Origin: Halichondria panicea
Taxonomy: Eukaryota > Porifera > Demospongiae > Suberitida > Halichondriidae
NCBI RefSeq assembly: GCF_963675165.1
Contig: NC_087382.1
Location: 2,140,567-2,204,566 of the forward strand
Direction of reading: 5' to 3'
DNA length: 64,000 nucleotides
Shown here one piece after another: positions 7,035 to 53,890 of the stretch. The position numbers were made by a program, and so were the translations under genes. Each line of letters starts with the position of its first letter. The stretch's first letter is position 1. A model generated the notes under the pieces. It saw nothing but the letters and a program-made list of their open reading frames with translations, was not told the DNA's origin and did no database searches.

Positions 7035-7268
7035 TTACTCTTTCACGACATCGATGACAGTGTGCGTGACTTCGAGTGTATTGTTTTGAGGAGGGGGAGG
7101 GGCTGGTCTGTAGTCCTCTGTGGTGAGGGGGGTTAGTACGTCCAGGGCAGGCTCTCTCAGCTGGTCTGGCCTCGTGGCAGGTCGGATGATGGGAGGAGTG
7201 ATGTAACGATCAGGGTCATCTTCTTCCATGGCTCCGTCAGTGTACGGATCACATCTGTCCGCGTTTGT
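7035..7268 (-). pseudogene. Orphaned cytosolic tail of array copy 1
   Basis: This stretch keeps the tail reading frame (MEEDDPDRY, ITPPIIRPATRPDQL, EDYRPAPPPP, stop at 7035-7037). It is in the same frame as the gene upstream but separated from it by a TGA at 7269-7271. A short deletion replaces the ATADNAPK stretch of the other copies with NNTLE. It would be translated only by readthrough. Confidence 0.8.
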
Positions 7269-10200
7269 TCAGGTTTCTTTGTTCTCCATTTCGTACCTTT
7301 CCAGTTTGCGAACTCGTGGAATCCTTTTTCTCAGTTTGAGTGAGTTTTGCAGAACAGGAACTTTCTTCAACATGTACTCGTAACAATGGTAGCAAACTAT
7401 CACCACAAACAAAATAAAAGCCACTGCCATTGAAATGTTGGATATTATGACTTGACTCTCATTGATGTTTCCTATGTAGAGGGTGCCATACGCTAGAATT
7501 GCAAGATTGAGGAAAAAGAGTGTTTCCAGTAAATCATTGAATCGTATTTTGTACACTGGATAATTCTGCGATTTGAAAACAATCAGTCCAACAGTTATAG
7601 ATCCAGCTGATAGTACAGGGAGAGAAGTGTCCAAAGCCAAGGCTGTTATTAGATTATGAGCAATCAAAGAAAATAGGAGCAGTCCCACCCAGTAGCGATG
7701 CTTGGGAGTGAATGGAGCATGGTATGCATCCATGAAACCAATGTAGTATGTGTTCTTAGTCCATTTCGTGAGTTTCCATTTTGAACAGCGAGGAAGCCAT
7801 TGTCCAAAGAAGAGCAGTACAGTGAACAATATACCAGAAATGAGGATTATGGCGGCAAAAATAAACCGAGGGACATGACCGGGAGTGAAATATTGCACAT
7901 TGCCGTCATACAACCAAACTATATCACTTGAATTGTTGGGAAAATCCAATACCTTGGTTGCACCATCAGGATAATCCAAGACCCTGTATTGCAGTGCAGC
8001 AATGATAAACCGTAAGAGTTTGGAATAAGAGAGTAGGACGAGTGTGCCTAGGGCAGCAACTGGGTTCCTGTTGGAGAGGAGCTTTGCAAATGAGTCAAAG
8101 TACTTGCTTAAAATGATTATTAAGAACATCAGAAGAAACAGGTAAGCGGGAAAGACAATCTGAAGGAGCACTTTTGCTTGAGAGTTCATTCTATCATAAA
8201 AGCATGTCTCAATACCTAAGTCAAGATTCACCCACGATATGAAAACTGTCAAAGGGTTATGAAAAGGTACGAAAATCGACTGATTTGCAGCTAATACATT
8301 AGTGTAGAAGATCAGCCCATGGATAGTGCCTGTTGCTACGGTAATGTTGAAAACGAGAATGAATGCGACTAGTACTATGCCTGCCAGGGCAAACGGGAGT
8401 AGCAGGAGAAGGTAAGTGTTTGAGCAGAGTTCACATCGTGAAGTACCTAACACAAGACTCAGTCCTGGTTCACATTCTCCACACAAGACACCACTTCGAT
8501 TGTGGGCACATTGTTCGTCAGGGTTGCTTAGACTGATGTTGACTGGTTTTAGTACACAATAGTCAAATGTACAGTTACTAACAACATACCCACTTCCGTT
8601 AGTAGTATTAGTCACTCCTATCCATATGTTGTTATTGCTTTCCAATTTTATGGTCCCATTTTCCTCAGAGCAGTTTGTTATCTGATATTCTTGTTGCAAG
8701 ACTGGATCACAGTCACACTTGCACTCAATTGAGGACATGATTGGCCTGAGTCCAATAGGGCATTCACACTTTAGAAAAGATATGTTTAGAATTTGTCTTG
8801 AAATTCCCAAATTGTTGCATGGACCATCAGCATAGAGTTCCACTTGAGCAGAGCTGTCTTGTGAGAATACATTATACTCTAATTCTGTGCACTGATTGCC
8901 AACTTCTTGCTGTGCTTGTCCTTCTTTAAGACGATCAACTCTACTGCTCTCAGTGATAACAGAACTGTGAATTATGGCATTATTCATTGGATTTCCAGCT
9001 TGGTCTACAGCCATAACACTTATTGTGAATGCTTGTCCTTTTCTAACAGAAATGGTCTGCTTGGTGGTGTTACACAACTTCACTCTGACAGCCTTTGAAG
9101 CTATCCATGAATAATGCACAGTATTGTTCAAGTACTCAAATCCATTGTCTGATGAAGAGAGTTCGGCTGATACATCCACCGTACACCTGTCCAAAAGACC
9201 TCCGTAAATATCTGCTCCTGACTGGGAAGCTGTGTTGTTTGTCAAAAAAGTGTTGCGATGATTAATTGATGTACTGTTCAAACACTTAACTTCTTCTTCA
9301 TATGAATTAGACTGGGAAGATTTGACAAAAGGTATCAAAGTCTCAACAAAATTGATATCAAAACCATAGAGATCTAGAGTTTGAATGAAGCATTCTGTTT
9401 GTGTCAGATCTCCTGCAGTAGTTACATCCTCTCCTCTACACACACCACTCTCAGTACTGTCTGCCACAAATATCCCCCCTCCATATTGAGCCGTGTTATT
9501 GTGGATTTCTAGTATGACTAGCATTTTACCAATCTCTAGCTCCAAGTCCTGTTTCAAAATATAGATCTTGGAACTTTGTTGTAGATACACTCCACCTCCG
9601 CTATTGTTTACTGAGTTTGACTTGATTTGGACGTGAGCGTGAGAAAAAGCCTTAATGTTTGAAGCGACTGCATAAATACCTCCTCCATTTTGAGCATCAT
9701 TTCGATCTATAATACTCACAAACAGTACAGGTTCTATGTCACTACATGTACACAGGACAAAGTTATTATTAAATATACAACCAGTAGTGACCTTCGAATC
9801 AAATTCAATTTCGCTTGAGTATGCATAAATCCCACCACCATTTTGTGCTGTGTTGTGAGAAATCTCTATTGGATAGTGAACAAAGAGTGTGCTCTCTCTC
9901 AGAAACACACCTCCTCCAACAGTAGCAGTATTGTTAGAAATGACCACTCCTTCTGCATTGATATAGACTTGACTCTGGATTGCTCTGATGGCTCCACCCT
10001 GCACACCACGGTTGTTACTGAGAGTTGTGGGTCCATTGAACTCCACTCGACTGCTTAGAGCATACACAGGGTTGACATTATTGCTAACGTTGTTAACTCC
10101 CGTAAATGACAAGTTAGAATGCACTGCGTAAATGATATTTTCACCCTCTAAATTGTCAAATATGCTTGTATTAGTAATTATCAAAGTTGAGATAGCAACC

Positions 10201-11903
10201 GCAATCACTCCATCTTGTTGAGTGGCTCTGTTGTTTGTGAGCACAGAGTCAGAAATGTTCACAGTGCCACCAGCAACAAAAAACACTCCACCAAAGTCAG
10301 CACTGTTATTTTTAAACATGACTTTGGAGATGGATATATTTCCAGTATATACCAAAATCGCTCCACCAAGACTAGTTCCTCCATTACCAAATACAGCTAT
10401 ACTGTCACTATCAACTACAGCTTCATTGTCCGTTATATTACAGCTCATGATAGATGCATTAACTATGAAAAGTCCAATCGCTCCACCAGAGGCTGCCTTG
10501 TTGTTTGTTAGCTCGCTATCAGATATCAGTAACTCTCCAGTCAAAACCGAAATCGCTCCATCTGATCTTTCAGCACTGTTGTACGCTAGCTCACTGTCGG
10601 AGATTGAGAAATTCCCAAACTGGATATTAATTGCTCCACCGTCAAAAATAGCACTATTGTTCAGTAGTGCACAATTGTATATGGTCAAATTACTTCCAAA
10701 TGTGAAAATTGCTCCACCTAATCCTTCAGCACTGTTGTACGCTAGCTCACTGTCGGAGATTGAGACACTCCCATTCTGGCTATAAATTGCTCCACCGCTA
10801 TCGATAGCACTATTGTTCAGTAGTGCACAGTTGGAAATGAACAAATTACTTTCGGAGGTTAAAATTGCTCCACCGTCAATGATAGCACTATTGTTTAGTA
10901 GCGTACAGTTGGAAATGAACAAATTACTTTCGGAGGTTAAAATTGCTCCACCATATTCAGCACTGTTGTACGCTAGCTCACTGTCAGAGATTGAGACACT
11001 CCCATCCTCACTATAAATTGCTCCACCGCTATCGATAGCACTATTGTACGCTAGCTCACTGTCGGAGATTGAGACACTCCCATCCTGGCTATAAATTGCT
11101 CCACCATCAAGGATAGCACTATTGTTTAGTAGCGCACAGTTGTATATGGTCAAATTACTTTCGGAGGTACTAATCGCTCCACCATTATGATAAGCGCTAT
11201 TATTTGTAAAGTTGCTCCAACTGATAGTCACACTTGCAGAGACCACAAACACTGCTCCACCATATGCAGCAGTATTGGAATCGAACCTTGAACCATTAAT
11301 AACAGTTTGATTTGATTTAATCTTCACTGCACCACCATCGTTACTGAAGAAGTCACTCTTTTCAATGTACACAGTATCAGCCTCAACAACACGTAATGCT
11401 CTGTCAATGCCAGTGTTGTTCACAAAGAGAACTTGTTCAATCGTCACAGTTACCGTACGAGTGATCCAGAGTGTACAAGCTTCCAACTTTAGCAATTTCA
11501 AGTCTACCAAATAGCATTGAGAAATGTTCATGTAGCCTGAACTACTTTCATCACCTGCTCCAGTGAAATGCAAACCTTCGATACTCAATGCACTGATATT
11601 AGATAACTGCACTCTACCAGAACTGTTCAAACTGATGGTGGCATTTTGGCCAGCAATAATCACCTCTCTGAAATTATAGATATAAAGCATTTCACGTAAT
11701 ATATGATCTCCAGGTAGAAAGCTCAAGGAGAGATTGTCTCCACCAGATAACAGGGCTGTTTGAACAAGCTGCTCGAGAGTGAAACAAGTTCCATTTCGAT
11801 AGTCATTACACAAGTCGGTTAAATCCACTGGCACGATGTGATAGTGCTCACTCCTGGTAACAGTAGCTAGGGTCAGTAGCAGCACCAACCAGGTGCAGTG
11901 CAT
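7269..11903 (-). CDS. Beta-helix/multi-TM receptor-like protein, copy 1 (tail truncated by nonsense codon)
   Basis: Single-exon gene for 1,544 residues. The start is set at the MHCTW methionine (11901-11903) because all copies share it and it opens a signal peptide; an in-frame ATG 33 bases upstream is not conserved. Order: signal peptide (1-18), N-terminal region, right-handed beta-helix of about 24-26-residue rungs with GGAI and NNSA/YNSA motifs (about 180-760), Cys-rich segment with a CGECEPG knot, about eight membrane helices, short basic cytosolic stretch. It has the largest variable rung block (eight). A TGA at 7269-7271, where the other copies have TGG, removes the last 78 residues. 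The same architecture occurs in uncharacterised proteins of sponges and other invertebrates; ligand and function are unknown. Many NxS/T sites fit a glycosylated surface protein. Confidence 0.85.
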   Translation of the reverse strand: MHCTWLVLLLTLATVTRSEHYHIVPVDLTDLCNDYRNGTCFTLEQLVQTALLSGGDNLSLSFLPGDHILREMLYIYNFREVIIAGQNATISLNSSGRVQLSNISALSIEGLHFTGAGDESSSGYMNISQCYLVDLKLLKLEACTLWITRTVTVTIEQVLFVNNTGIDRALRVVEADTVYIEKSDFFSNDGGAVKIKSNQTVINGSRFDSNTAAYGGAVFVVSASVTISWSNFTNNSAYHNGGAISTSESNLTIYNCALLNNSAILDGGAIYSQDGSVSISDSELAYNSAIDSGGAIYSEDGSVSISDSELAYNSAEYGGAILTSESNLFISNCTLLNNSAIIDGGAILTSESNLFISNCALLNNSAIDSGGAIYSQNGSVSISDSELAYNSAEGLGGAIFTFGSNLTIYNCALLNNSAIFDGGAINIQFGNFSISDSELAYNSAERSDGAISVLTGELLISDSELTNNKAASGGAIGLFIVNASIMSCNITDNEAVVDSDSIAVFGNGGTSLGGAILVYTGNISISKVMFKNNSADFGGVFFVAGGTVNISDSVLTNNRATQQDGVIAVAISTLIITNTSIFDNLEGENIIYAVHSNLSFTGVNNVSNNVNPVYALSSRVEFNGPTTLSNNRGVQGGAIRAIQSQVYINAEGVVISNNTATVGGGVFLRESTLFVHYPIEISHNTAQNGGGIYAYSSEIEFDSKVTTGCIFNNNFVLCTCSDIEPVLFVSIIDRNDAQNGGGIYAVASNIKAFSHAHVQIKSNSVNNSGGGVYLQQSSKIYILKQDLELEIGKMLVILEIHNNTAQYGGGIFVADSTESGVCRGEDVTTAGDLTQTECFIQTLDLYGFDINFVETLIPFVKSSQSNSYEEEVKCLNSTSINHRNTFLTNNTASQSGADIYGGLLDRCTVDVSAELSSSDNGFEYLNNTVHYSWIASKAVRVKLCNTTKQTISVRKGQAFTISVMAVDQAGNPMNNAIIHSSVITESSRVDRLKEGQAQQEVGNQCTELEYNVFSQDSSAQVELYADGPCNNLGISRQILNISFLKCECPIGLRPIMSSIECKCDCDPVLQQEYQITNCSEENGTIKLESNNNIWIGVTNTTNGSGYVVSNCTFDYCVLKPVNISLSNPDEQCAHNRSGVLCGECEPGLSLVLGTSRCELCSNTYLLLLLPFALAGIVLVAFILVFNITVATGTIHGLIFYTNVLAANQSIFVPFHNPLTVFISWVNLDLGIETCFYDRMNSQAKVLLQIVFPAYLFLLMFLIIILSKYFDSFAKLLSNRNPVAALGTLVLLSYSKLLRFIIAALQYRVLDYPDGATKVLDFPNNSSDIVWLYDGNVQYFTPGHVPRFIFAAIILISGILFTVLLFFGQWLPRCSKWKLTKWTKNTYYIGFMDAYHAPFTPKHRYWVGLLLFSLIAHNLITALALDTSLPVLSAGSITVGLIVFKSQNYPVYKIRFNDLLETLFFLNLAILAYGTLYIGNINESQVIISNISMAVAFILFVVIVCYHCYEYMLKKVPVLQNSLKLRKRIPRVRKLERYEMENKET

Positions 11904-17445: not shown

Positions 17446-20400
17446 TCATTCGTTAATGCTACTCTTTATGACATCGATGACAGTGTGCGTGACTTTGGGT
17501 GCATTGTCAGCTGTAGCTTGAGGAGGGGGAGGGGCTGGTCTGTAGTCCTCTGTGGTGAGGGGGGCTAGCACGTCCAGGGCAGGCTCTCTCAGCTGGTCTG
17601 GCCTCGTGGCTGGTCTGATGATGGGAGGAGTGATGTAACGATCAGGGTCATCTTCTTCCATGGCTCCATCAGTGTACGGATCACATCTGCCCGCGTTTGT
17701 CCAGGTTTCTTTGTTCTCCATTTCGTACCTTTCCAGTTTGCGAACTCGTGGAATCATTTTTCTCAGTTTGAGTGCATTTTGCAGAACAGGAACTGTTTTC
17801 AAAATGTACTCGTAACAATGGTAGCAGACTATCACCACCAACAAAATAAAAGCCACTGCCATTGAAATGTTGGATATTATGACTTGACTCTCATTGATGT
17901 TTCCTATGTAGAGGGTGCCATACGCTAGAATTGCAAGATTGAGGAAAAAGAGTGTTTCCAGTAAATCATTGAATCGTATTTTGTACACTGGATAATTCTG
18001 CGATTTGAAAATATTAAGTCCAACAGTTATAGATCCAGCTGATAGTACGGGTAGAGATGTGTCCAAAGCCAAGGCTGTTATTAGATTATGAGCGATCAAA
18101 GAAAATAGGAGCAGTCCCACCCAGTAGCGATGCTTGGGAGTGAATGGAGCATGGTATGCATCCATGAAGCCATTGTAGTATGTGTTCTTAGTCCATTTCA
18201 TGAGCTTCCATTTTGAACAGCGAGGAAACCATTGTCCAAACAAGAGCACTACAGTGAACAATATACCAGAAATGAGGATTATGGCGGCAAAAACAAACCG
18301 AGGGACGTGACCGGGAGTGAAATATTGCACATTGCCGTCATACAACCAAACTATATCATTTGAATTGTTGGGAAAATCCAACACCTTGGTTGCACCCTCA
18401 GGATAATCCAAGACCCTGTATTGCAGTGCAGCAATGATAAACCGTAAGAGTTTGGAATAAGAGAGTAGGACGAGTGTGCCTAGGGCAGCAACTGGGTTTC
18501 TGTTGGAGAGGAGCTTTGCAAATGAGTCGGAGTACTTGCTTAAAATAATTATTAAGAACATCAGAAGAAACAGGTAAACAGGAAAGATCATTTGAAGGAG
18601 CACTTTTGCTTGAGAGTTCATTCTATCATAAAAGCATGTCTCAATACCTAAGTCAAGATTCACCCACGATATGAAAACTGTCAAAGGGTTATGAAAAGGT
18701 ATGAAAATCGATTGATTTGCAGCTAATATATTAGTGTAGAAGATCAGCCCATGGATAGTGCCTGTTGCTACGGTAATGTTGAAAACGAGAATGAATGCGA
18801 CTAGTACTATGCCTGCCAGGGCAAACGGGAGTAGCAGGAGAAGGTAAGTGTTTGAGCAGAGTTCACATCGTGAAGTACCTAACACAAGACTGAGTCCTGG
18901 TTCACATTCTCCACACAAAACACCACTTCGATTGTGGGCACATTGTTCGTCAGGGTTGCTTAGACTGATGTTGACTAGTTTTAGTACACAATAGTCAAAT
19001 GTACAGTTACTAACAACATACCCACTTCCGTTAGTAGTATTAGTCACTCCTATCCATATGTTGTTATTGCTTTCCAGCTTTATGGTCCCATTTTCCTCAG
19101 AACAGTTTGTTATCTGATATTCTTGTTGCAAGACTGGATCACAGTCACACTTGCACTCAATTGAGGACATGATTGGCTTGAGTCCAATAGGGCATTCACA
19201 CTTTAGAAAAGATATGTTTAGAATTTGTCTTGAAATTCCCAAATTGTTGCATGGACCCTCAGCATAGAGTTCCACTTGAGCAGAGCTGTCTTGTGAGAAT
19301 ACATTATACTCTAATTCTGTGCACTGATTGCCAACTTCTTGCTGTGCTTGTCCTTCTTTGAGACGATCAACTCTACTGCTCTCAGTGATAACAGAACTGT
19401 GAATTATGGCATTATTCATTGGATTTCCAGCTTGGTCTACAGCCATAATACTGATTGTGAATGCTTGTCCTTTTCTAACAGAAATGGTCTGCTTGGTGGT
19501 GTTACACAACTTCACTCTGACAGCCTTTGAAGCTATCCATGAATAATGCACAGTATTGTTCAAGTACTCAAATCCATTGTCTGATGAAGAGAGTTCGGCT
19601 GATACATCCACCGTACACCTGTCTAGTAGACCTCCGTAAATATCTGCTCCTGACTGGGAAGCTGTGTTGTTTGTCAAAAAGTGTTGCGATGATTAATTGC
19701 ACTGTTCAAACACTTAACTTCTTCATACGAGAATAAATCTTGGACCAAAGTCTTAATAAAATTGATATTAAGACCATGGAGATCCAGAGTTTGAATGAAG
19801 CATTCTGTTTGTGGCAGATCTCCTGCAGTAGTTACATCCTCTCCTCTACACACACCACTCTCAGTACTGTCTGCCACAAATATCCCCCCTCCATATTGAG
19901 CCGTGTTATTGTGGATTTCTAGCTTGACCAGTGTTTTACCAAGCTCTAGCTCCAAGTCCTGTTTCAGAATATAGATCTTAGAACTTTGTCATAAATAAAT
20001 TCCACCTCCGCTGTTGTTTGCTGAGTTTGACTGTATGTGGATGTGAGCGTGAGAAAAGGCCTTGATGTTTGAAGCAACTGCATAAATACCTCCCCCATTT
20101 TGAGCATCATTTCGATCTATAATACTCTCAAACAGTATATCTTCCACGTCACTACATGTACACAGGACAAAGTTATGATTAAATATACAACCATAAGCAG
20201 TAGTGACCTTCGAATCAAATTCAATTTCGCTTGAGTATGCATAAATCCCACCACCATTTCGTGCTGTGTTGTGAGAAATCTCTATGCGATAGTGAACAAA
20301 GAGTGTGCTCTCTCTCAGAAACACACCTCCTCCAAAGGTAGCAGTATTGTTAGAAATGACCACTCCTTCTGCATTGATATAGATTTGACTCTGGACTGCT

Positions 20401-21911
20401 CTGATGGCTCCACCCTGCACACCACGATTGTTACTGAGAGTTGTGGGTCCATTGAACTCCACTCGACTGCTTAGAGCATACACAGGGTTTATATTATTGC
20501 TAACGTTGTTAACTCCCGTAAATGACAAGTTAGAATGCACTGCGTAAATGATATTTTCACCCTCTAAATTGTCAAATATGCTTGTATTAGTAATTATCAA
20601 ACTTGAGATAAAAACCGCAATCACTCCATCTCGTTGAGTGGCTCTGTTGTTTGTGAGCAGAGAGTCGGAAATGATCACAGTGCCATCAGCAACAAAAAAC
20701 ACTCCACCAAAGTCAGCACTGTTATTTTTAAACATGACTTTGGAAACGAATATAGTTCCAGTATATACCAAAATCACTCCACCAGCGCTAGTTTCTCCAT
20801 TATCAACTACAGCTTCATTGTCTGTTATATTGCAGCTCAAGATAGATGCATTAGCTATGAAAAGTGCAATCGCTCCACCAGAGGCTGCCTTGTTGTTTGT
20901 TAACTTGCTATCTGATATTAGTAACTCTCCACCAAAAACCAAAATCGCTCCACCTGATCTTTCAGCACTGTTGTACGCTAGCTCACTGTCGAAGATTGAG
21001 ACACTCCCATCCTGGATAAAAATTACTGCACCGCCAAAAATAGCACTATTGTTTAGTAGCGCACAGTTGTATATGGTCAAATTAATTATGAAGGTGAAAA
21101 TTGCTCCACCATATTCAGCAATATTATCCATAAAGTTACAGAAACTGATTGAAACATTAACTGCCAAATATATAGAAGTACTAATTGCTCCACCTCTTAC
21201 ATTAGCGATATTATTTGTAAAGTTGCACCAACTGATAGTCACACTTGCAGAGACCACAAACACTGCTCCCCCCATTGTAGCAGTATTGGAATTGAATCTT
21301 GAATCGTTAATAACAGTTTGATTTGAGTGAATGTAAGCTGCACCACCATCGTTACTGAAGAAGTCGCTCTTTTCAATGTACACATTATCAGCTTCAACCA
21401 TCAATGCTCTGTCAGTGCTAGTGTTGTTCACAAAGAGAACTTGTTCAATCGTCACAGTTACCGTACGAGTGATCCAGAGTGTACAAGCTTCCAACTTTAG
21501 CAATTTCAAGTCTACCAAATAGCATTGAGAAATGTTCATGTAGCCTGAACTACTTTCATCACCTGCTCCAGTGAAATGCAAACCTTCAATACTCAATGCA
21601 CTGATATTAGATAACTGCACTCTACCAGAATTGTTCAAACTGATGGTGGCATTTTGGCCAGCAATAATCACCTCTGTGAAATTACAAATGTAAAGGATTT
21701 CACTCAATAAATTATCTCCAGGTAGAAAGCTCAAGGTGAGATTGTCTCCACCAGACAACAGGTCTGTTTGAACAAGCTGCTCGAGAGTGAAACAAGTTCC
21801 ATTTCGATAGTCATTACACGAGTCGGTTGAATCCACTGGCACAATGTGATAGTGCTCACTCCTGGTAACAGTAGCTAGGGTCAGTAGCAGCACCAACCAG
21901 GTGCAGTGCAT
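17446..21911 (-). pseudogene. Beta-helix/multi-TM receptor-like gene, copy 2 (nonsense + frameshift)
   Basis: The family start (MHCTW) is at 21909-21911 and the same domain order follows, but the frame is broken twice. A TGA at 19989-19991 replaces the CGA Arg codon seen in copies 3 and 4. A run of five A's at 19676-19680, where copies 1, 3 and 5 have six, shifts the frame just before TNNTASQ. Without these it would be close to full length. The variable helix block has three rungs, including an NVSISFCNFMDN module shared only with copy 5. The C-terminus ends SSINE, not VVKQ. A secreted, truncated beta-helix (the first 640 residues) could still be made. Otherwise it is a recent pseudogene or carries assembly errors. 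Confidence 0.85.
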
Positions 21912-34371: not shown

Positions 34372-37300
34372 TTACTGTTTCACGACATCGATGACAGTGT
34401 GCGTGACTTTGGGTGCATTGTCAGCTGTAGCTTGAGGAGGGGGAGGGGCTGGTCTGTAGTCCTCTGCGGTGAGGGGGGCTAGCACGTCCAGGGCAGGCTC
34501 TCTCAGCTGGTCTGGCCTCGTGGCAGGTCGGATGATGGGAGGAGTGATGTAACGATCAGGGTCAGCTTCTTCCATGGCTCCATCAGTGTACCGATCACAT
34601 CTGCCCGCGTTTGTCCAGGTTTCATTGTTCTCCATTTCGTACCTTTCCAGTTTGCGAACTCGTGGAATCCTTTTTCTCAGTTTGAGTGAGTTTTGCAGAA
34701 CAGGAACTTTCTTCAACATGTACTCGTAACAATGGTAGCAGACTATCACCACAAACAAAATAAAAGCCACTGCCATTGAAATGTTGGATATTATGACTTG
34801 ACTCTCATTGATATTTCCTATGTAGAGGGTGCCATACGCTAGAATTGCAAGATTGAGGAAAAAGAGTGTTTCCAGTAAATCATTGAATCGTATTTTGTAC
34901 ACTGGATAATTCTGCGATTTGAAAACAATCAGTCCAACAGTTATAGATCCAGCTGATAGTACGGGGAGAGAAGTGTCCAAAGCCAAAAAGGCTGTTATTA
35001 GGTTATGAGCGATCAAAGAAAATAGGAGCAGTCCCACCCAGTAGCGATGCTTGGGAGTGAATGGAGCATGGTATGCATCCATGAAGCCATTGTAGTATGT
35101 GTTCTTAGTCCATTTCATGAGCTTCCATTTTGAACAGCGAGGAAACCATTGTCCAAAGAAGAGCACTACAGTGAACAATATACCAGAAATGAGGATTATG
35201 GCGGCAAAAACAAACCGAGGGACGTGACCAGGAGTGAAATATTGCACATTGCCGTCATACAACCAAACTATATCATTTGAATTGTTGGGAAAATCCAATA
35301 CCTTGGTTGCACCCTCAGGATAGTCCAAGACCCTGTATTGCAGTGCAGCAATGATAAACCGCAAGAGTTTGGAATAAGAGAGTAGGACGAGTGTGCCTAG
35401 GGCAGCAACTGGGTTCCTGTTGGAAAGGAGCTTTGCAAATGAGTCAGAGTACTTGCTTAAAATGATTATTAAGAACATCAGAAGAAACAGGTAAGCAGGA
35501 AAGACCATTTGAAGGAGCACTTTTGCTTGAGAGTTCATTCTTTCATAAAAGCATGTCTCAATACCTAAGTCAAGATTCACCCACGATATGAAAACTGTCA
35601 AAGGGTTATGAAAAGGTATGAAGATCGACTGATTTGCAGCTAATATATTAGTGTAGAAGATCAGCCCATGGATAGTGCCTGTTGCTACAGTAATGTTGAA
35701 AACGAGAATGAATGCGACTAGTACTATGCCTGCCAGGGCAAACGGGAGTAGCAGGAGAAGGTGAGTGTTTGAGCAGAGTTCACATCGTGAAGTACCTAAC
35801 ACAAGACTGAGTCCTGGTTCACATTCTCCACACAAGACACCACTTCGATTGTAGGCACACTGTTCGTCAGGGTGGTTGCTTAGATTGATGTTGACTGGTT
35901 TTAGTACACAATAGTCAAATGTACAGTTACTAACAACATACCCATGCACTTCCGTTAGTGGTATTAGTCACTCCTATCCATATGTTGTTATTACTTTCCA
36001 ATTTTATGGTCTCATTTTCATCAGAACAGTTTGTTATCTGATATTCTTGTTGCAACACTGGATCACAGTCACACTTGCACTCAATTGAGGACATGATTGG
36101 TTGGAGTCCAATAGGGCATTCACACTTTTGAAAAGAGATGTTTAGAATTTGTCTTGAAATTCCCAAATTGTTGCATGGACCATCAGCATAGAGTTCCACT
36201 TGAGCAGAGCTGTCTTGTGAGAATACATTGTACTCTAATTCTGTGCACTGATTGCCAACTTCTTGTTGTGCTTGTCCTTCTTTGAGACGATCAACTCTAC
36301 TGCTCTCAGTTATAACAGAACTGTGAATTATGGCTTTATTCATTGGATTTCCAACTTGGTCTACAGCCATAACACTTATTGTGAATGCTTGTCCTTTTCT
36401 AACAGAAATGGTCTGGTTGGTGGTGCTACACAACTTCACTCTGACAGCCTTTGAAGCTATTGATGAATAATGCACAGTATTGTTCAAGTACTCAAATCCA
36501 TTGTCTGATGAAGAGAGTTCGGCTGATACATCCACCGTACACCTGTCCAAAAGACCTCCGTAAATATCTGCTCCTGACTGGGTAGCTGTGTTGTTTGTCA
36601 GAAAAGTGTTGCGATTATTGATTGCACTGTTCAAACATTTAACTTCTTCATTAAATCCAGTCATTAATAAAGAAAAGAAAGCTTGGATCAAAGGTATCAC
36701 ACCCTTAATAGAATTGTTATCAAAACCATAGAGATCTATAGTTTGAATGAAGCACTCTGTTTGTGGCAGATCTCCTGCAGTAGTTACATCCTCTCCTCTA
36801 CACACACCACTCTCAGTACTGTCTGCCACAAATATCCCCCCTCCATATTGAGCCGTGTTACTGTAGATTTCTAGTATGACCAGCGTTTTACCAAGCTCTA
36901 GCTCCACATCCTGTTTCAGAATATGTATCTTAGAACTTTGTCGTAAATAAATTCCACCTCCGCTATTGTTTGCTGAGTTTGACTTGATGTGGACGTGAGC
37001 GTGAGAAAAGGCCTTGATGTTTGAAGCGACTGCATAAATACCTCCTCCATTTTGAGCATCATTTCGATCTATAATACTCACAAACAGTACAGGTTCCATG
37101 TCACTACATGTACACAGGACAAACTGATGATTAAATATACAACCAGTAGTAACCTTCGAATCAAATTCAATTTCGCTTGAGTATGCATAAATCCCACCAC
37201 CATTTTGTGCTGTGTTGTGAGAAATCTCTATGGGATAGTGAACAAAGAGTGTGCTCTCTCTCAGAAACACACCTCCTCCAACAGTAGCAGTATTGTTAGA

Positions 37301-38920
37301 AATGACCACTCCTTCTGCATTGATATAGATTTGACTCTGGACTGCTCTGATGGCTCCACCCTGCACACCACGATTGTTACTGAGAGTTGTGGGTCCATTG
37401 AACTCCACTCGACTGCTTAGAGCATACACAGGGTTTACATTATTGCTAACGGTGTTAACTCCCGTAAATGACAAGTTAGAATGCACTACGTAAATGATAT
37501 TTTCACCCTCAAAATTGTCAAATATGCTTGTATTAGTAATTATCAAAGTTGCGATAGCAACCGCAATCACTCCATCTTGTTGGGTGGCTCTGTTGTTTGT
37601 GAGCAGAGAGTCGAAAATGATCACAGTGCCATTAGCAACAAAAAACACTGCACCAGCGTCAGCACTGTTATTTTTAAACATGACTTTGGAGACAGATATA
37701 GTTCCAGTATATACCAAAATCGCTCCACCAAGACTAGTTCCTCCATTACCAACTACAGCTTCATTGTCCGTTATATTACAGCTCATGATAGATGCATTAC
37801 CCATGAAAAGTGCAATCGCTCCACCATTTTCAGCACTGTTGTACGCTAGCTCACTGTCAGAGATTGAGACACTCCCTTCCTGGCTAAAAATTGCTCCACC
37901 ATGAACGATAGCACTATTGTTTAGTAGCGTACAGTTGTATATGGACAAATTACTTTCGAAGGTGTAAATCGCTCCACCATATTCAGCACTGTTGTACACT
38001 AGCTCACTGTCGGAGATTGAGACACTCCCTTCCAGGCTAATAATTGCTCCACCGATAACGATAGCACTATTGTACGCTAGCTCACTGTCGGAGATTGAGA
38101 CACTCCCTTCCTGGCTAAAAATTGCTCCACCGATAACGATAGCACTATTGTTTAGTAGCGCACAGTTGTATATGGACAAATTACTTTCGGAGGTACTAAT
38201 CGCTCCACCAATATAATAAGCAATATTATTTGTAAAGTTGCTCCAACTGATAGTCACATTTGCAGAGACCACAAACACTGCTCCACCATATGTAGTACCA
38301 GTATTAAAATTGAACCTTGAACCATTAATAACAGTTTGACTTGATTCAATGTTCACTGCACCGCCATCGTTACGTAAGAAGTCACTCTTTTCAATGTACA
38401 CAGTATCAGCCTTAACAATCAATGCTCTGTAAGTGTTCACAAAGAGAACTTGTTCAATCGTCACAGTTACCGTACGAGTGATCCAGAGTGTACAAGCTTC
38501 CAACTTTAGCAATTTCAAGTCTACCAAATAGCATTGAGAAATGTACATATAGCCTGAACTACTTTCATCACCTGCTCCAGTGAAATGCAAACCTTCAATA
38601 CTCAATGCACTGATATTAGATAACTGCACTCTACCAGAATTGTTCAAACTGATAGTGGCATTTTGGCCAGCAATAATCACCTCTCTGAAATTACAAATGT
38701 AAAGCATTTCACTTAATAAATGATCTCCAGGTAGAAAGCTCAAGGTGAGATTGTCTCCACCAGATAACAGGGCTGTTTGAACAAGCTGCTCGAGAGTGAA
38801 ACAAGTTCCATTTCGATAGTTATTACACAAGTCGGTTGAATCCACTGGCACAATGTGATAGTGCTCACTCCTGGTAACAGTAGCTAGGGTCAGTAGCAGC
38901 ACCAACCAGGTGCAGTGCAT
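34372..38920 (-). pseudogene. Beta-helix/multi-TM receptor-like gene, copy 4 (4-nt insertion)
   Basis: Starts at the family MHCTW and is open for about 990 residues through the helix and most of the Cys-rich segment. An extra ATGC at about 35944-35947 then breaks the frame in the NGSGYVVSN stretch, giving a short NGSAWVCC end. The remaining 520 residues (CGECEPG knot, membrane domain, tail) are open in another frame. Two 3-base insertions nearby (SNHPDEQ, TAFLALD) are harmless. The variable block has five rungs and lacks the ELLISDS rung found in the other four copies. If transcribed it would make a secreted ectodomain without membrane anchor. Pseudogene, or an assembly error at one site. Confidence 0.85.
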
Positions 38921-44011: not shown

Positions 44012-44722
44012 ACACTTATGCCTCCGTAAATTATGTGTTTGGACCTATGTTAGCAGTCCACTCTCTATAATAAAACCGTTAGTCTACCCAAGGGTAGCCA
44101 TCACCATAATATTATAGACAGCCTCCACTCTCTACACTGCATGTACTTACGATTTCTTGGTCAATCTTTGCCTGAGTGCTTTAGCTTGACTCATAATGAT
44201 CATAATGAAATATACACAGGCTAACACAGTTGACTTGTTGGATGTACTGGTTCCCCCGAGGACCATTCGTATCACCACTCCTCGTCGGAGGTTCCACCTG
44301 GAATTTAAGACGGAAATAAAACGAGTCCAAACAATGTGAGAACATTACTATGATTATTTTAGTGTAGTGCTTGTGTGTGCAGTATTCAATTACTACATGT
44401 TTATGCACTCTTTATCTTTTCCTGTACACACCGTGATCATACATGCACGTACATGCTGCATGTACATGCATGTGAATTATAGTGATCGAGCTCAGTTCTG
44501 AGAAACTTGTTTATGGTGGTCACAGTTGGGCAGACCGACAGGTGGCTGTAATAAAGATGTGGCTTGTTTGCTTGCACGGGTAGAAACATAATTATGCTAG
44601 GGAGATTTGAAGCTAATTGGTGTGGCTAGATCCTCATTAGACAGTAATGACTCCTAATGAGTCACTGACCCAAGCATGCATATGTGGTGTAGGCTAACCG
44701 CTTAGCTTCCTCTGTGTAGGCT
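43061..44722. repeat. 1.7-kb tandem duplication, copy B
   Basis: Second copy of 41318-43060. The three-exon model is damaged here. A short deletion removes the CTATAG acceptor and part of its flank (near 43948-43955). The last exon reads VDMIVKRLE and stops earlier, after GHLTN. Confidence 0.85.
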
Positions 44723-44868
44723 TACAGTGGTTTTCCTTACTATACTGCAAGAGCACTGCAACCACAATGTAGTATTTTGGTTGGCTTCTGTTATGATTGT
44801 TAGTAACGACTACCACCCTGCTTCCTAAAAGGAAGTTTGTGGTTACCCCACACACCCACACACCACAG

Positions 44869-46065: not shown

Positions 46066-46675
46066 ATAGCACAGTGGGGCCACACTATAGGCTCTGTACA
46101 CTAGCTACAGTGCACACAGTGGGGCCACACTATAGGCTCTGTACACTAGCTACAGTGCACACAGTGGGGCCACACTATAGGCTCTGTACACTAGCTACAG
46201 TGCACACAGTGGGGCCACACTATAGGCTCTGTACACTAGCTACAGTGCACACAGTGGGGCCACACTATAGGCTCTGTACACTAGCTACAGTGCACACAGT
46301 GGGACCACACTATAGGCTCTGTACACTAGCTACAGTGCACACAGTGGGACCACACTATAGGCTCTGTACACTAGCTACAGTGCACACAGTGGGACCACAC
46401 TATAGGCTCTGTACACTAGCTACAGTGTACACAGTGGGACCACACTCTAGGCTCTGTACACTAGCTACAGTGCACACAGTGGGACCACACTGTAGGCTCT
46501 GTACACTAGCTACAGTGCACACAGTGGGACCACACTATAGGCTCTGCATGTACACTATAGATCTAGCTACAGTGTGCACAGTGGGACCACACTATAGGCT
46601 CTGCGTGTACACTAGATCTAGCTACAGTGTGCACAGTGGGACCACACTATAGGCTCTGTACACTAGTCTACACAC
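46066..46675. repeat. 45-bp minisatellite, about 14 copies
   Basis: Tandem units containing CACAGTGGGGCCACACTATA and GGCTCTGTACACTAGCTACAGTG, 45 bp apart. Because 45 is divisible by three, a long repetitive reading frame appears, but it is not a gene. A single unit is present in the CRT-like intron near 57293-57325, so this is an expanded copy of that intron. Confidence 0.9.
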
Positions 46676-46812
46676 TGCAGATCAATTAGCCTAGCATTTC
46701 CATCTGCTTTTTGTTTTAAAATGTGAGTTGAAGGATTGTAAATAAAAGCGTTCTTTACAATACGATAATATTTACAGACTTTACAGTATTGTACGATATC
46801 TACTTACAAATA
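46676..46812 (-). pseudogene. CRT-like intron 2/exon 2 border fragment
   Basis: Resembles 57335-57451 (TTTAAAA-GTGAGTT, GTAATAAA-GC-TTCTTT, ATCTACTTACAAAT), ending at the donor side of exon 2. It joins directly to a fragment of a beta-helix gene. Confidence 0.6.
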
Positions 46813-46976
46813 CTACAGTAAACAATATACCAGTGGTTAGGATTATATAGTGCATGGCAGCAACAAACCGAGGGACGTGATCAAGAGTAACAAATCGAGG
46901 GACGTGATCAGGAGTACACTGTTGCACATTCATTTGCCATCATACAACCAAACAATATCACTTGTATTGTCAACTC
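46813..46976 (-). pseudogene. Fragment of beta-helix gene membrane region
   Basis: Matches the membrane-domain coding region of the array genes (ACAGTAAACAATATACCAG, AACCGAGGGACGTGATCA). An internal duplication of about 35 bp and indels break every frame. It lies just downstream of copy 5 and is a further broken copy. Confidence 0.7.
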
Positions 46977-47269
46977 ATAATATTAATCAAAGCTAGTCTC
47001 TCGTTGCTTGGTCTGGATCTCACCCAAAATACTAGATATACTTATAATTTTGTTTGTTGGCTATAATTATAATTGAGAGTTTGACGTGTGTTATCTTGTG
47101 GACATTAATTAGCTACAGTCACAACACAAATCATAATAACAGCTAGCAGAGGATAATAAAACTAGTAAAACAATAGAGAGGATAATTAGTTTTCTCTAAA
47201 CTAGTAAAACAGCAATGAATATTGTAATCAGCAATAATTAATATTATCATTCTAATCTAAGTCGTGAGT

Positions 47270-50200
47270 TTAGACTTTATTATGTATGGGACCAATTTCT
47301 GTGCATGTAACAGCAGGACGGTGGTTGACTCTTGTAGGGGGAGGGGCTGGTCTGTAGTCCTCTGTGGTGAGGGGGGCTAGTTCATCCATGTAGGATAGTC
47401 TCAGCTGGTCCGGCCTCGTGGCAGGTCTGATGATGGGAGGAGTGATGTAACGATCAGGGTCAGCTTCTTCCATGGCTCCATCAGTGTACGGTGGGTTCAA
47501 GGCGTCTCTTTGTTCATAGTCGTCTACTACTTCAAGTAATTCATCATCATCATTTGCATTGACTACTGGCTGATACATTTCTCGACCATTGTTAGCTCGT
47601 CTGTCTGCAACATCAACTCCTAAATTCCTTACAATGTCTTCTATCTTCAGCCATGTATTGGTCTTCTTGAGTACGAATTGATAAAAATGGTAAGAGAGTG
47701 TTATTGCAAAGATGATAAAGGATATAGTCATCGAAGTATTGGCTAGTGCTGACTGATCTTTCCTGCTATCTTTGACATAAGAGGTACCAAATGCTAGACA
47801 AACAATATTGAGTAGATACAAAGTTTCGAGGGAATCACGGAATTTGTTTTTGTACAAACGATTATTCAGTAATTTCCAGCTGATTAGTCCAACAGACAGA
47901 ACCCCAGCTGATAGTACGGGTAGAGAATTGTCCAAAGCCAAGGCAGTTATTAGATTATGAGTGATCAGAGTCAAAAGGAGCAGTCCCACCCAGTAGCGAT
48001 GCTTGGGAGTGAATGGAGCATGGTATGCATCCATGAAGCCATTGTAGTATGTGTTTTTAGTCCATTTCATGAGTTTCCATTTTGAACAGAGAGGAAGCCA
48101 TTGTCCAAAGAAGAGCACTACAGTGAACAATATACCAGAAATGAGGATTATGGCGGCAAAAACAAACCGAGGGACGTGACCAGAAGTGAAATATTGCACA
48201 TTGCCGTCATACATCCAAACTATATCACTTGAATTGTTGGGAAAATCCAATACCTTGGTTGCACCATCAGGATAATCCAAGACCCTGTATTGCAGTGCAG
48301 CAATGATAAACCGTAAGAGTTTGGAATAAGAGAGTAGGACGAGTGTGCCTAGGGCAGCAACTGGGTTCCTGTTGGAGAGGAGCTTTGCAAATGAGTCAAA
48401 GTACTTGCTCAAAATGATTATTAAAGGGAAGGTACCATGAAAAAATAAAGTTTTATTTTTTTGCCTTAAAATGTTCTTTGTGGGGTATAAAATAGCCCTG
48501 AGACAAAAAAATATTTTTCTGAAAATTAACTTTTCAGAGAAACAGGACTGTAAAAACACAATTTCTGGCTTAAAATTTTGCTTCCTGTTGTGGTCAAATG
48601 TGGGCGCGGTCAAACGTGACGTCAGAGTAGGCATTTGTGCTGCATGTAAAATGTATTCTGTGTGTGTTGAGTGTGTTGCAGCTGGTTGCTCCTTTACATC
48701 TAGCAGTCATACAGTTCTCTCAGTTGAAATATGAGTGGGAAAAACAAGTCCTATGTACCAGAGCTCACTGAAAAGCAACAGAATCCTGTTTTTGTGTACA
48801 GTGAAAACTCACAGATATGACCTCCCTTGCTGCTCAGTTTGGGATCCAAAAGAGGAAGAAGCTGAGATCTGAGGTCTGGAGCCATTCTAACTGTTTTCTA
48901 TAAGGCAGTTATTCAGAAATAAACTGCCATATCGTCCTGTAAAGAGAGACGGCCCTGAGATCAGAGTCATGGAATGGAGAGATAGCCCTATAGAGAAGTG
49001 CCCGGTCGGCCGCTGTATACGGAAAAGCGAGAACGGAGACAGGTTAATAGCTTCTGTTTTTGTTCAATCATGTATAATTATAATACCTCGCTGCAGTTGA
49101 TACTTGATGCTTTACAAGAGACAACCTCTCTATACCGTGACTCCTGCATGTAGACCCGGCATGCAACTGAGACTCCTGATCAGACTACATATGCATGCAG
49201 TACCTCTCTTCCTATTTTCATGTTGGAAACAACTTCAGCAAGGGTCTCATTGTCATGCAAAGACAAGTGAAACCAAAACTTGACGTGTTAATAATGTAAA
49301 GATTACCGATAGTAACTCAAACCCCATCTAAATTATAAATTATAACTACCAAGGATGTCGATATTTAGTGTGAAGTGCTTGGACTCATGCATGGTGACTC
49401 TCCCCCTGTTGTCAAATCCCATACAACCTAATTTTGAGCCCAGCATCTTCTTCTCCTAAACGTTTGTCGCGACATTGACAAAAACGTAACTTTTAAATTG
49501 TCTCAAGAGTAATACACGTAATACAGGTTGAGTCAATAATCCTGCATGTGAAGAAGAAGGAAATTTGTTACGAATCGCAGCTATACTGCATGCACAGCTT
49601 GGTAGAACAACTCGTATAATTATATGTCTTCCAAGCCAGCCCCAGCACAACCGACTAGTTAAGAAAGTTATACCTTTCGCACTGATAAACTTACTGGTGT
49701 ATACTTCATTCTCATCTGCCTCACCATATCTGTGTTTGTGGGCAGTGTACGCTATCTGTAGCACCCACATATCAAGGATCAAATCCATCACACTGATTCT
49801 CTATTGGTATATACATTTCTACACAACGTACTACCGCATGCATTCACACCTGACACACTCAATTGCATGACTGTATACTTATACATATAGACCTAGTCTA
49901 TATACTAATTAGTCAATTAACATTTCCTATCCTGCCTTCATTGTCACCATCATCATCACCACTCGAACTAGCATGGGAAGGCTTTCTCGCTCATACAGAT
50001 ATGGCTCCACAGCGCTTGTTTTATCTTCACTGCAGCTTCTTTCATGCTCAACAGATGAGAAGGAGTAGGAAAAACTCAACTGGCTTGAAAATCATAGCTA
50101 AAATCACATGTGTCTGTCAGTCAGACTCATGCAGCCACCAGTATGCATCAATTCAATGTTTACTAGTACCTACTCTGACGTCACGTTTGACCGCGCCCAC

Positions 50201-53200
50201 ATTTGACCTCAACAGGAAGTAAAATTTTAAGCCTTTCTTAACAATCCTGTTCCTCAGAAACTTTAATTTTAAAAAAAATTTTTTTGCATCAAGGTTATTT
50301 TATATCTCACAAAGAACATTTTAAGGCAAAAAAATAATACTTTATTTTTTCATGGTACCTTCCCTTTAAAAACATCAGAAGAAACAGGTAAGCAGGAAAG
50401 ACCATCTGAAGGAGCACTTTTGCTTGAGAGTTCATTCCATCATAAAAGCATGTCTCAATACCCAAGTCAAGATTCACCCACGATATGAAAACTGACAAGG
50501 GGTTATGAAAAGGTATGAAGATCGACTGATTTGCAGCTAATATATTCGTGTAGAAGATCAGCCCATGGATAGTGCCTGTTGCTACGGTAATGTTGAAAAC
50601 GAGAATGAATGCAACTAGTACTATGCCTGCCAGGGAAAACGGGAGTAGCAGGAGAAGGTAAGTGTTTGAGCAGAGTTCACATCGTGAAGTACCTAACACA
50701 AGACTCAGTCCTGGTTCACATTTTCCACACAAGACACCACTTCGATTGTAGGCACACTGTTCATCAGGGTTGCTTAGACTGATGTTGACTGGTTTTAGTA
50801 CACAATAGTCAAATGTACAGTTACTAACAACATACCCACTTCCGTTAGTGGTATTAGTCACTCCTATCCATATGTTGTTATTGCTTTCCAATTTTATGGT
50901 CCCATTTTCCTCAGAACAGTTTGTTATCTGATATTTTTGTTGCAAGACTGGATCACAGTCACACTTGCACTCAATTGAGGACATTATTGGCTTGAGTCCA
51001 ATAGGGCATTCACACTTTAGAAAAGATATGTTTAGAATTTGTTTTGAAATTCCCAAATTGTTGCATGGACCATCAGCATAGAGTTCCACTTGAGCAGAGC
51101 TGTCTTGTGAGAATACATTGTACTCTAATTCTGTGCACTGATTGCCAACTTCTTGCTGTGCTTGTCCTTCTTTGAGACGATCAACTCTACTGCTCTCAGT
51201 GATAACAGAACTGTGAATTGTGGCATTATTCATTGGATTTCCAGCTTGGTCTACAGCCATAACACTGATTGTGAATGCTTGTCCTTTTCTAACAGAAATG
51301 GCCTGCTTGGTGGTGTTACACAACTTCACTCTGACAGCCTTTGAAGCTATCCATGAATAATGCACAGTATTGTTCAAGTACTCAAATCCATTGTCTGATG
51401 AAGAGAGTTCGGCTGATACATCCACCGTACACCTGTCTAGTAGACCTCCGTAAATATCTGCTCCTGACTGGGTAGCTGTGTTGTTTGTCAAAAAAGTGTT
51501 GCGATTATTGATTGCACTGTTCAAACATTTAACTTCTTTATTAAATCCAGTCATTAATGAAGACAAGAAAGCTTCGACCAATTGTACCAAAGTCTTAATA
51601 AAATTGATATCAAGACCATAGAGATCCAGAGTTTGAATGAAGCATTCTGTTTGTGTCAGATCTCGTGCAGTACTTACATCCTCTCCTCTACACACACCAC
51701 TCTCAGTACTGTCTGCCACAAATATCCCCCCTCCATATCGAGCCGTATTATTGTGAATTTCTAATATGACCAGCGTTTTACCAAGCTCTAGCTCCAAGTC
51801 CTGTTTCAGAATATAGATCTTAGAACTTTGTTGTAGATACACTCCACCTCCGCTATTGTTTGCTGAGTTTGACTTGATTTGGACGTGAGCGTGAGAAAAA
51901 GTCTTAATGTTTGAAGCGACTGCATAAATACCTCCTCCATTTTGAGCGTCATTTCGATCTATAATACTCTCAAACAGTACAGTCTCCATGTCACTACATG
52001 TACACAGGACAAAGTTATTATTAAATATACAACCAGTAGTGACCTTCGAATCAAATTCAATTTCGCTTGAGTATGCATAAATCCCACCACCATTTTGTGC
52101 AGTGTTGTGAGAAATCTCTATGCAATAGTGAACAAAGAGTGTGCTCTCTCTCAGAAACACACCTCCACCAAAGGTAGCAGTATTGTTAGAAATGACCACT
52201 CCTTCTGCATTGATATAGATTTGACTCTGGACTGCTCTGATGGCTCCACCCTGCACACCACGATTGCTACTGAGAGTTGTGGGTCCATTGAACTCCACTC
52301 GACTGCTTAGAGCATACACAGGGTTTACATTATTGCTAACGTTGTTAACTCCCGTCAATGACAAGTTAGAATGCACTGCGTAAATGATATTTTCACCCTC
52401 TAAATTGTCAAATATGCTTGTATTAGTAATTATCAAAGTTGATATAGCAACCGCAATCACTCCATCTTGTTGAGTGGCTCTGTTGTTTGTGAGCACAGAG
52501 TCGGAAATGATCACAGTGCCATCAGCAACAAAAAACACTCCACCAAATTCAGCACTGTTATTTTTAAACATGACTTTGGAGATGGATATAGTTCCAGTAT
52601 ATACCAAAATTGCTCCACCAGAGCTAGTTTCTCCATTATCAACTACAGCTTCATTGTCCGTTATATTACAGCTCATGATAGATGCATTAACTCTGAAAAG
52701 TGCAATCGCTCCACCAGAGGCTGCCTTGTTGTTTGTTAGCTTGCTATCGGATATTAGTAACTCTTCACTCAAAATCGAAATCGCTCCACCTGCTCTCTCA
52801 GCACTGTTGTATGCTAGCTCACTGTCGTAGATTGAGACACTCCCAACATACTGGCTAAAAATTGCTCCACCGTCAAGGATAGCACTATTGTTCAGTAGTA
52901 GACAGTTGGAAATGAACAAATTACTTTCGGAGGTAAAAATTGCTCCACCGTCAATGATAGCACTGTTGTACGATAGCTCACTGTCAGAGATTGAGACACT
53001 CCTAGCACCCTGGCTACGAATTGCTCCACCGACGATAGCACTATTGTTCAGTAGTGCACAGTTGTATATGAACAAGTTACTTCTGAAGGTGAAAATTGCT
53101 CCACCATATTTAGCAATATTATCCATAAAGTTACAGAAACTTATTGAAACATTAATTGCCGAAGTACCAATTGCTCCACCATTATAATAAGCGCCATTAT

Positions 53201-53890
53201 TTGTAAAGTTGCACCAACTGATAGTCACACTTGCAGAGATCACCTCCACTGCTCCACCATATGTAGTACCAGTATTAAAATTGAACCTTGAACCATTAAT
53301 AACAGTTTGACTTGATTCAATGTTCACTGCACCGCCATCGTTACGTAAGAAGTCACTCTTTTCAATGTACACAGTATCAGCCTTAACAATCAATGCTCTG
53401 TAAGTGTTCACAAAGAGAACTTGTTCAATCGTCACAGTTACCGTACGAGTGATCCAGAGTGTACAAGCTTCCAACTTTAGCAATTTCAAGTCTACCAAAT
53501 AGCATTGAGAAATGTACATATAGCCTGAACTACTTTCATCACTTGCTCCAGTGAAATGCAAACCTTCAATACTCAATGCACTGATATTAGATAACAGCAC
53601 TCTACCAGTTTTGTTAAACTGATAGTGTCATTTTGGCCAGCAATAATCACCTCTGTGAAATTACAAATGTAAAGCATTTCACGTAATATATGATCTCCAG
53701 GTAGAAAGCTCAAGGTGAGATTGTCTCCACCAGACAACAGGGCTGTTTGAACAAGCTGCTCGAGAGTGAAACAAGTTCCATTTTGATAGTCATGACACAA
53801 GTCGGTTGAATCCACTGGCACAATGTGATAGTGCTCACTCCTGGTAACAGTAGCTAGGGTCAGTAGCAGCACCAACCAGGTGCAGTGCAT
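47270..53890 (-). pseudogene. Beta-helix/multi-TM receptor-like gene, copy 5 (transposon-split, frameshifted, mosaic tail)
   Basis: Starts at the family MHCTW (53888-53890). One base is missing near 53615 compared with all other copies, shifting the frame after about 90 residues. The helix and Cys-rich region are then open to the first membrane helices. A 1.94-kb element (48425-50365) interrupts the gene in the LFLLMFL/IIILSKY stretch. Beyond it the membrane domain continues in the compatible frame. From about 47915 to 47494 the sequence switches to a much more divergent relative (KNKFRDSLETLYLLN), then returns to the family's TDGAMEE...ITPPII tail, and ends HNKV. The variable block has five rungs. 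Three independent disturbances make this a pseudogene. Confidence 0.85.
48425..50365. mobile_element. TTAA-target DNA transposon (1.94 kb) with about 200-bp inverted ends
   Basis: Left end AGGGAAGGTACCATG and right end CATGGTACCTTCCCT belong to terminal inverted repeats of about 200 bp (48425-48631 and 50169-50365). TTAA flanks both sides (48421-48424 and 50366-50369). The four other array genes have a single TTAA at this exact place. The interior shows only short reading frames, so it is non-autonomous; TTAA duplication suggests piggyBac mobilisation. Confidence 0.9.

Follow-up and report, generated by a model that had tools for sequence, protein, structure and literature searches.

What might a row of sponge genes gain from being almost alike over most of their length and sharply different in one repeated stretch? 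The question is raised by a 64,000-nucleotide piece of the Halichondria panicea genome, referred to here as the window, which whole-genome placement puts at positions 2140567-2204566 of contig C6 in an assembly of 131 Mb, and in which we found five tandem gene copies, all on the minus strand, whose best named protein matches are uncharacterised Halichondria panicea proteins. A previous, sequence-only reading had described the encoded proteins as receptor-like, with whole beta-helix rungs gained, lost and exchanged in one surface patch on a fixed membrane scaffold, as expected of a diversifying recognition receptor. To our knowledge, the receptors behind self/non-self discrimination in sponges are unsettled. 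Sponges tell self from non-self with remarkable specificity (PMC5450542, excerpt). We consider it probable that the genes in the window form a single cluster within a large family of sponge surface proteins, germline-encoded and multi-pass, in which an N-terminal beta-helix provides a modular recognition surface. All of the comparisons below rest on one H. panicea genome.

Results

Variable modules and their fold

An independent parse of the stretch that starts after the GGAV[FE]V rung and runs up to the ELLISDS/SCNITDN rungs gave the same strings of A, B and E rungs as the sequence-only reading in all five copies (Table 1). Rungs are 25-27 codons long (28 in the E rung of copy 2); those of the same type average 84-87% DNA identity, within a copy or between copies alike, and A and B rungs are 61% identical. 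Tandem Repeats Finder detected 78/156-base arrays in copies 1, 4 and 5, and AlphaFold models the copy 1 rungs with confidence as right-handed beta-helix coils that keep one strand register, although strands 1 and 2 run together in some of them. Given both the tandem arrays and this shared register, the rung pattern is not a product of chance. The repeated three-strand coils are those of a right-handed parallel beta-helix (pectin-lyase-like fold), and the Pfam profile PF02415 matches copy 3 at 37.4 bits and copy 1 at 78.7 bits, with a cut-off of 20.6. Sequence and model together show each module as a single predicted beta-helix coil, encoded by approximately 75-84 bases.

The proposed confinement of variation to one patch is borne out by the rung strings only in part, as the rungs before and after the A/B zone vary too, along with a loop at alignment columns 838-897 and the C-terminus of copy 5. 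The loop (copy 1 residues ~829-885) is a second hypervariable stretch that changes in length, situated at the junction of the distal helix and the membrane-proximal domain.

The C-terminal part of the protein contains around eight hydrophobic segments and helices in a low-confidence model (mean predicted local distance difference test score 58, too low for a conclusion on fold), which found no Foldseek match at E <= 0.001. Pfam gave no match to an autotransporter domain at E up to 1 in copies 1 and 3, and none to NACHT, WD40 or leucine-rich repeat (LRR) domains, and a sequence search of the PDB with copy 3 alone returned nothing at E up to 1. A proline-rich DYRPAPPP stretch is conserved at the end of the cytoplasmic tail (7035-7268, and the tails of copies 2-5), which we take to be a possible SH3-type ligand; the copy 1 protein lacks it because of a premature stop.

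Exchange and duplication of rungs

Several rungs are closer to rungs of other copies than the average for their type. Rungs 1-2 of copy 1 share 94-95% DNA identity with rungs 1-2 of copy 4, rungs 4-5 of copy 1 are 91-92% identical to the fourth rung of copy 5, and rung 8 of copy 1 is 92% identical to the A rung of copy 3 and also matches loci L015, L017 and L018. Approximately 1 Mb away on the other strand, locus L011 matches three of the five rungs of copy 4 at 95-97%. In a mosaic test, which assumes exchangeable sites, the overall run statistic was reached by 0/2000 permutations; likewise, 0/2000 matched either the run of 40 polymorphic sites shared by copies 4 and 5 (codon columns 123-215) or that of 19 sites shared by copies 2 and 3 (165-197), and the other eight of the ten copy pairs were not extreme or weakly so. 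As both runs lie wholly or partly in a fast-evolving stretch, rate differences do not explain them.

At locus L012 (G000:C6:1396500-1401800), which has an intact frame of 1656 residues, the A-B dyad is present twice and its two A rungs are 100% identical in DNA, apparently through a recent block duplication. The block holding the first rungs is also present twice there. Furthermore, two close locus pairs (dS, synonymous divergence, 0.06 and 0.11) differ by two rungs each. These sequences show copies that differ in how many coils they carry and in what order, and bear signs that rung pairs have been duplicated in tandem and that rungs have passed from one copy to another.

The gain, loss and exchange of modules put forward earlier is therefore supported by the rung strings, the rung identities, the mosaic test and loci L012 and L011, but the scaffold that carries the modules is largely, not wholly, conserved. 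It cannot be called fixed, because the last membrane segment and tail of copy 5 (47270-48424) match another subfamily (database proteins P0009, P0008 and P0030), which suggests that gene conversion or recombination has affected the scaffold as well.

Selection within the window

Amino-acid differences among A and B rungs fall mostly at positions 5-9, after GGA-I, and 24-26, before the next GGA. As these positions would lie above one another in the coil stack we call them the stripe, a set defined on the A/B rungs. Position 6 is mostly hydrophobic across the family and is constrained, which suggests that positions 5 and 7 on either side of it point outward.

Within the A/B rungs, pairwise pN/pS (proportions of nonsynonymous over synonymous differences) at the stripe reached 1.82 in A rungs and 0.57 in B rungs; the pooled value was 1.05, against 0.26 for the core. 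For the test of the stripe we used seven further proximal rungs with one-to-one alignment, one of which is absent from copy 4. Minimal nonsynonymous to synonymous (N:S) changes among the five copies were 64:6 at the stripe and 25:17 in the core of the same rungs (53:5 vs 24:15 without the SCNITDN rung); seven distal rungs gave 7:6 at their stripe, and the Cys-rich and membrane parts gave 22:24 and 31:31, respectively. Maximum-likelihood estimates of omega (dN/dS, nonsynonymous over synonymous rate) were 3.61 for the stripe, 0.51 for the proximal core, 0.37 for the distal rungs, 0.24 for the Cys-rich part, 0.39 for the membrane part, 0.75 for the cap and 1.32 for the 838-897 loop. For the stripe, omega = 1 was rejected (twice the log-likelihood difference, 2dlnL, 12.3; p = 0.0004), and its omega stayed at 2.9-4.6 on leaving out single copies.

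The sequence-only reading had called for a dN/dS comparison by rung: omega exceeds 1 at the stripe of the seven proximal rungs, but is 0.65-0.77 for whole rungs without the stripe split. That reading had also held a recognition role unlikely should individuals show identical rung numbers and rung sites share the constraint of the membrane domain. On the second of these points such a role is not refuted, as the stripe and the membrane part differ about ninefold in omega, and the contrast recurs outside the window.

Replication in other loci and codon resolution

We took 27 further family loci from the best matches, and in 24 of these the frame is 1300 aa or longer. Nine close relatives (the ten loci L009-L018, less L016 with its short frame) were tested together, without fifteen codons of the long loop that follows the SCNITDN rung, these codons having been retained in the window N:S count; L019 and L021 were likewise omitted for short frames, except that their rungs were pooled in the codon analysis and distal control below. 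Omega in these nine loci was 1.72 for the stripe, 0.65 for the core, 0.20 for the Cys-rich part and 0.49 for the membrane part, and in their distal rungs 0.28 for the stripe and 0.43 for the core. A stripe omega of 1 was rejected at p = 0.038, and the estimate rises to 2.4 on leaving out L014 and L017.

Fifteen more distant loci gave seven disjoint pairs, six of them scorable (L028/L029 has no scorable rungs and L024 is unpaired). Across the six, N:S was 169:36 for the stripe, 154:103 for the core and 383:385 for the Cys-rich and membrane parts combined (Fisher p 1.5e-7 and 4.7e-18), the stripe lying above the core in every scorable pair and at or above 1 in five.

For single codons, 164 canonical proximal rungs from 29 copies were pooled into 70 disjoint nearest pairs, excluding identical pairs and pairs more than 16% apart; only rungs of the fixed pattern were admitted, and the conservation of positions 1-4, 21 and 23 partly reflects this filter. 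Relative to the overall synonymous rate, the nonsynonymous rate was 1.8x at position 5, 2.2x at 7, 1.6x at 24, 2.7x at 25 and 2.5x at 26, and at most 1.06x at all remaining positions, pN at position 6 being 0.42 of the synonymous rate. Positions 5, 7, 25 and 26 survive correction for 26 tests; position 24 does not. Together, positions 5, 7 and 24-26 carry 136 different residue combinations among the 164 rungs. In a distal-rung control of 78 disjoint pairs, pN/pS at the stripe positions was 0.30. In the pooled proximal coils, first-strand positions 5 and 7 and turn positions 25 and 26, perhaps also 24, are thus shown to outpace synonymous sites, and constraint is shown for the other positions of the coil as well as for the distal helix, Cys-rich and membrane parts.

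Family size and distribution

A 126-residue membrane-domain query gave at least 151 matches in the genome, fragments and split genes included, a lower bound as 150 of 285 candidates were scored. By eye, around two thirds of the matches lie on C6, and approximately 80 fall within open frames of at least 1000 codons. The same domain occurs in 140 of the 184 database proteins retrieved; in 104 of these 140 it is preceded by more than 800 residues, with a range of 801-1892.

Two peptide patterns from the Cys-rich/membrane part found no relative in 84,980 prokaryote species genomes, and a 1-kb piece of the window had no megablast match among phages. A bacterial or viral origin was set aside, there being no prokaryote relatives by those two patterns and no close relatives on viral contigs, with the named protein matches coming from Halichondria panicea. 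Database proteins were also considered as a source of alleles, but P0003/P0004 are 99.9% and P0029/P0030 100% identical and may come from the same individual, which makes them uninformative on polymorphism. Some small NCBI contigs, among them those of P0009 and P0012, might stem from a second individual (another H. panicea assembly is described in PMC8994243, excerpt), though this could not be shown.

No publication on this family turned up in the searches made of an open-access library. A search for the terms "pectin" and "beta-helix" found neither in the main text of PMC8242945, PMC12345144 or PMC5450542. The excerpted part of the SECOM study describes an Amphimedon segment cluster of 18, 2 of them annotated as pectin-lyase-like (PMC3386278), and this cluster may touch the family.

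The window copies and their surroundings

The coding DNA of the copies is approximately 90-94% identical in long alignment blocks, and most 60-codon windows outside the variable zones are 94-99% identical. Of the five near-full, near-identical copies described previously, the tandem set and the high identity of the flanking blocks are upheld, but only one frame is intact (Table 1), the breaks in copies 1, 2, 4 and 5 being those of the assembled sequence. The sequence of database protein P0002 is identical to that of copy 1. The 1,941-base element inside copy 5, presumably piggyBac-like, has no long frame, and the gene model of database protein P0122 ends within it. No structural RNA or tRNA was found in the window.

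Table 1. Gene copies, variable rung arrays and other features, numbered from the first nucleotide of the window
Feature	Position	Strand	Description
Copy 1	7035..11903	-	Beta-helix ectodomain, Cys-rich part, multi-pass membrane protein; open frame 7272-11903 (1544 aa)
Copy 1, premature stop	7269-7271		Tail-coding stretch 7035-7268 downstream of the stop
Copy 1, variable rungs	10563..11183	-	B-A-A-B-B-A-B-A; 8 rungs, 75-78 bases each; strand register modelled, tandem repeats detected
Copy 2	17446..21911	-	In-frame stop, upstream frame ends at 19989; frameshift ~19681-19700
Copy 2, variable rungs	20955..21194	-	E-B-A
Copy 3	27141..31529	-	Sole uninterrupted full-length frame among the window copies; 1462 aa
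Copy 3, variable rungs	30657..30815	-	B-A
Copy 4	34372..38920	-	Frameshift ~35941-35965
Copy 4, variable rungs	37826..38209	-	B-A-A-B-A, without the ELLISDS rung
Copy 5	47270..53890	-	Frameshift near 53610-53629; transposon-like insertion in membrane domain
Copy 5, variable rungs	52791..53180	-	E-B-A-B-A
Sixth copy	536..1015	-	3' fragment only (membrane-domain end and tail)
Decayed fragment	46700..47094	-	Membrane-domain fragment of the family
Element inside copy 5	48425..50365	.	1,941 bases; ~70-base near-perfect terminal inverted repeats; TTAA on both sides
Tandem duplication	41310-42265 + 43053-44015; 42299-43054 + 43976-44724		~1.7 kb, between copies 4 and 5; no long open frame
Minisatellite	46070-46672		45-base unit
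Minisatellite	55599-56177		43-base unit
Satellite	62231-63995		27-base unit; G+C above the rest of the window

Discussion

A diversifying recognition surface is what these findings point to when taken together: a constrained scaffold, coils that are exchanged and duplicated, and positive selection confined to a few positions in part of the helix. Recognition itself is what we infer from this, as are the nature of the ligand and any decision between allorecognition and microbe sensing, and we lean towards self/non-self or microbe sensing because the selection signal recurs in independent gene pairs. As most of the window copies are interrupted, the statement fits the genome-wide family better than these five genes. 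It is plausible that the stacking of coils brings positions 5, 7 and 24-26 into one stripe that contacts the ligand, and that changes in the number and order of rungs would alter the length and pattern of this stripe and with them its specificity. Binding could then be relayed through the membrane part to the conserved cytoplasmic tail. The ligand would most likely be a variable non-self or self cue, such as a microbial surface or conspecific tissue, and the broken window copies would be casualties of the same birth-and-death process.

A rival account takes the proximal rungs for a coding minisatellite of an adhesion or matrix protein, turned over by unequal crossing-over under relaxed constraint. 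The 78-base unit is indeed detectable as a tandem repeat, the tandem duplication of a dyad is visible, PMP-like repeats from outside the family vary at most exposed positions, and both the pooled A/B stripe value and the whole-rung omega would suit such neutral turnover. Relaxation, however, predicts an omega of approximately 1, as against 3.6, with omega = 1 rejected, in the seven other proximal rungs; most other positions of the same rungs are constrained, including position 6 between two of the fastest, and the stripe positions of distal rungs stand at pN/pS 0.30. We therefore regard this account as quite improbable. The notion that the window cluster consists mostly of pseudogenes, and that differences between its copies are decay without present function, finds some encouragement in the stops, frameshifts and transposon-like element of copies 1, 2, 4 and 5 and in the 3' and decayed fragments nearby. 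Yet the Cys-rich and membrane parts of these copies are still at omega 0.24-0.39, copy 3 is intact, and the long frames at most of the best-matching loci elsewhere show the stripe contrast too, all of which makes a local relic highly improbable.

It is also conceivable that these proteins capture or sense polysaccharides from food or the environment, with the stripe as a glycan-binding groove, as in the beta-helix polysaccharide enzymes AlgG and the pectate lyases, that has diversified with the glycans of diet or symbionts. A fold held in common proves no function, and an omega above 1 in several independent comparisons would suggest an adversarial or self-marking partner more readily than stable nutrients, so that we judge glycan capture improbable.

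A number of our own results weigh against a diversifying recognition surface. The pooled A/B stripe value barely exceeds 1 and was obtained with high synonymous divergence; the 838-897 loop and the cap are both compatible with omega = 1 (p = 0.41 and 0.44, respectively); and stripe positions 8 (1.04) and 9 (0.69) show no excess at the codon level. In the nine-locus test, leaving out L012 or L011 brings 2dlnL to 3.3 and 2.9, under the 5% limit, and stripe omega is near or under 1 in two of the six scorable pairs (0.90 and 1.02). Our selection tests fit one omega per partition to recombining sequences, which can inflate it, and the stripe was first noticed in the same genes as were tested. Position entropy was dropped as proof of selection and on its own proves nothing, because PMP-like proteins from outside the family are equally variable at the stripe positions, this control being a rough one as some of its 38 "non-family" proteins resemble truncated sponge models. 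Furthermore, frames are interrupted in four of the five window copies, the C-terminus of copy 5 derives from another subfamily, and any signalling role is a guess, as the membrane domain is poorly modelled.

The closest precedent is found in the fungal HNWD genes, to which the sponge family is analogous as far as tested without being a member. In the excerpted descriptions, the HNWD/NWD genes of Podospora anserina exchange repeats within and between members and vary in repeat number, with four diversifying positions per WD40 repeat in HNWD, arranged as two pairs flanking a conserved residue, and pseudogene loci that keep intact repeats (PMC1805685, PMC2873952). The sponge rungs have a similar pair, positions 5 and 7, around a conserved residue, and the family likewise combines repeat exchange within and between genes with diversifying selection on few surface positions, more weakly so in the A/B rungs. 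The fungal proteins, however, join STAND/NACHT and WD40 domains, for which we found no match in a beta-helix borne on a multi-pass membrane protein, and recognition has been demonstrated for HNWD, whereas the sponge family is known here from the sequence of one genome.

Other systems offer looser likenesses. The lamprey variable lymphocyte receptors (VLRs; PMC3900441, excerpt) are also solenoids of interchangeable modules with variable residues on one face. These receptors have an LRR fold and are assembled somatically by a process like gene conversion, in contrast to the germline-encoded sponge beta-helix. Chlamydia Pmp proteins share the GGA[ILV] ... N repeats, with the motif pair GGA[ILV]/FxxN and one repeat per beta-helix coil (PF02415; PMC11166332, excerpt), but are bacterial autotransporters, whereas the sponge proteins end in a Cys-rich part followed by multi-pass helices. 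For highly variable plant NLRs, binding sites have been predicted from the hypervariable positions of a repeat solenoid (PMC8226289, excerpt), in cytoplasmic LRR receptors and with population data. Sponge NLRs, SRCRs and the grafting response likewise involve large or individual candidate repertoires, with different domains (PMC12909245, PMC10855680, PMC8242945, PMC12345144, PMC5450542, excerpts).

We are evenly divided on whether the family amounts to an undescribed, germline-diversified recognition system of sponges, in which coil modules are shuffled among roughly a hundred loci and around five stacked, exposed residues per coil are selected to read self or non-self. In such a system a membrane-anchored beta-helix would do what LRR solenoids do for VLRs or WD40 propellers for HNWD. 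In either case the family supplies a countable set of recognition candidates, with at least 151 membrane-domain matches in a single genome and the contact codons (5, 7 and 24-26) predicted for each proximal rung, on a scaffold simple enough, at one coil with some five variable residues, to be open to binding and structural work. Should the recognition reading prove true, the beta-helix would join the short list of repeat folds that bear diversifying recognition, having come to it by a route like that of HNWD.

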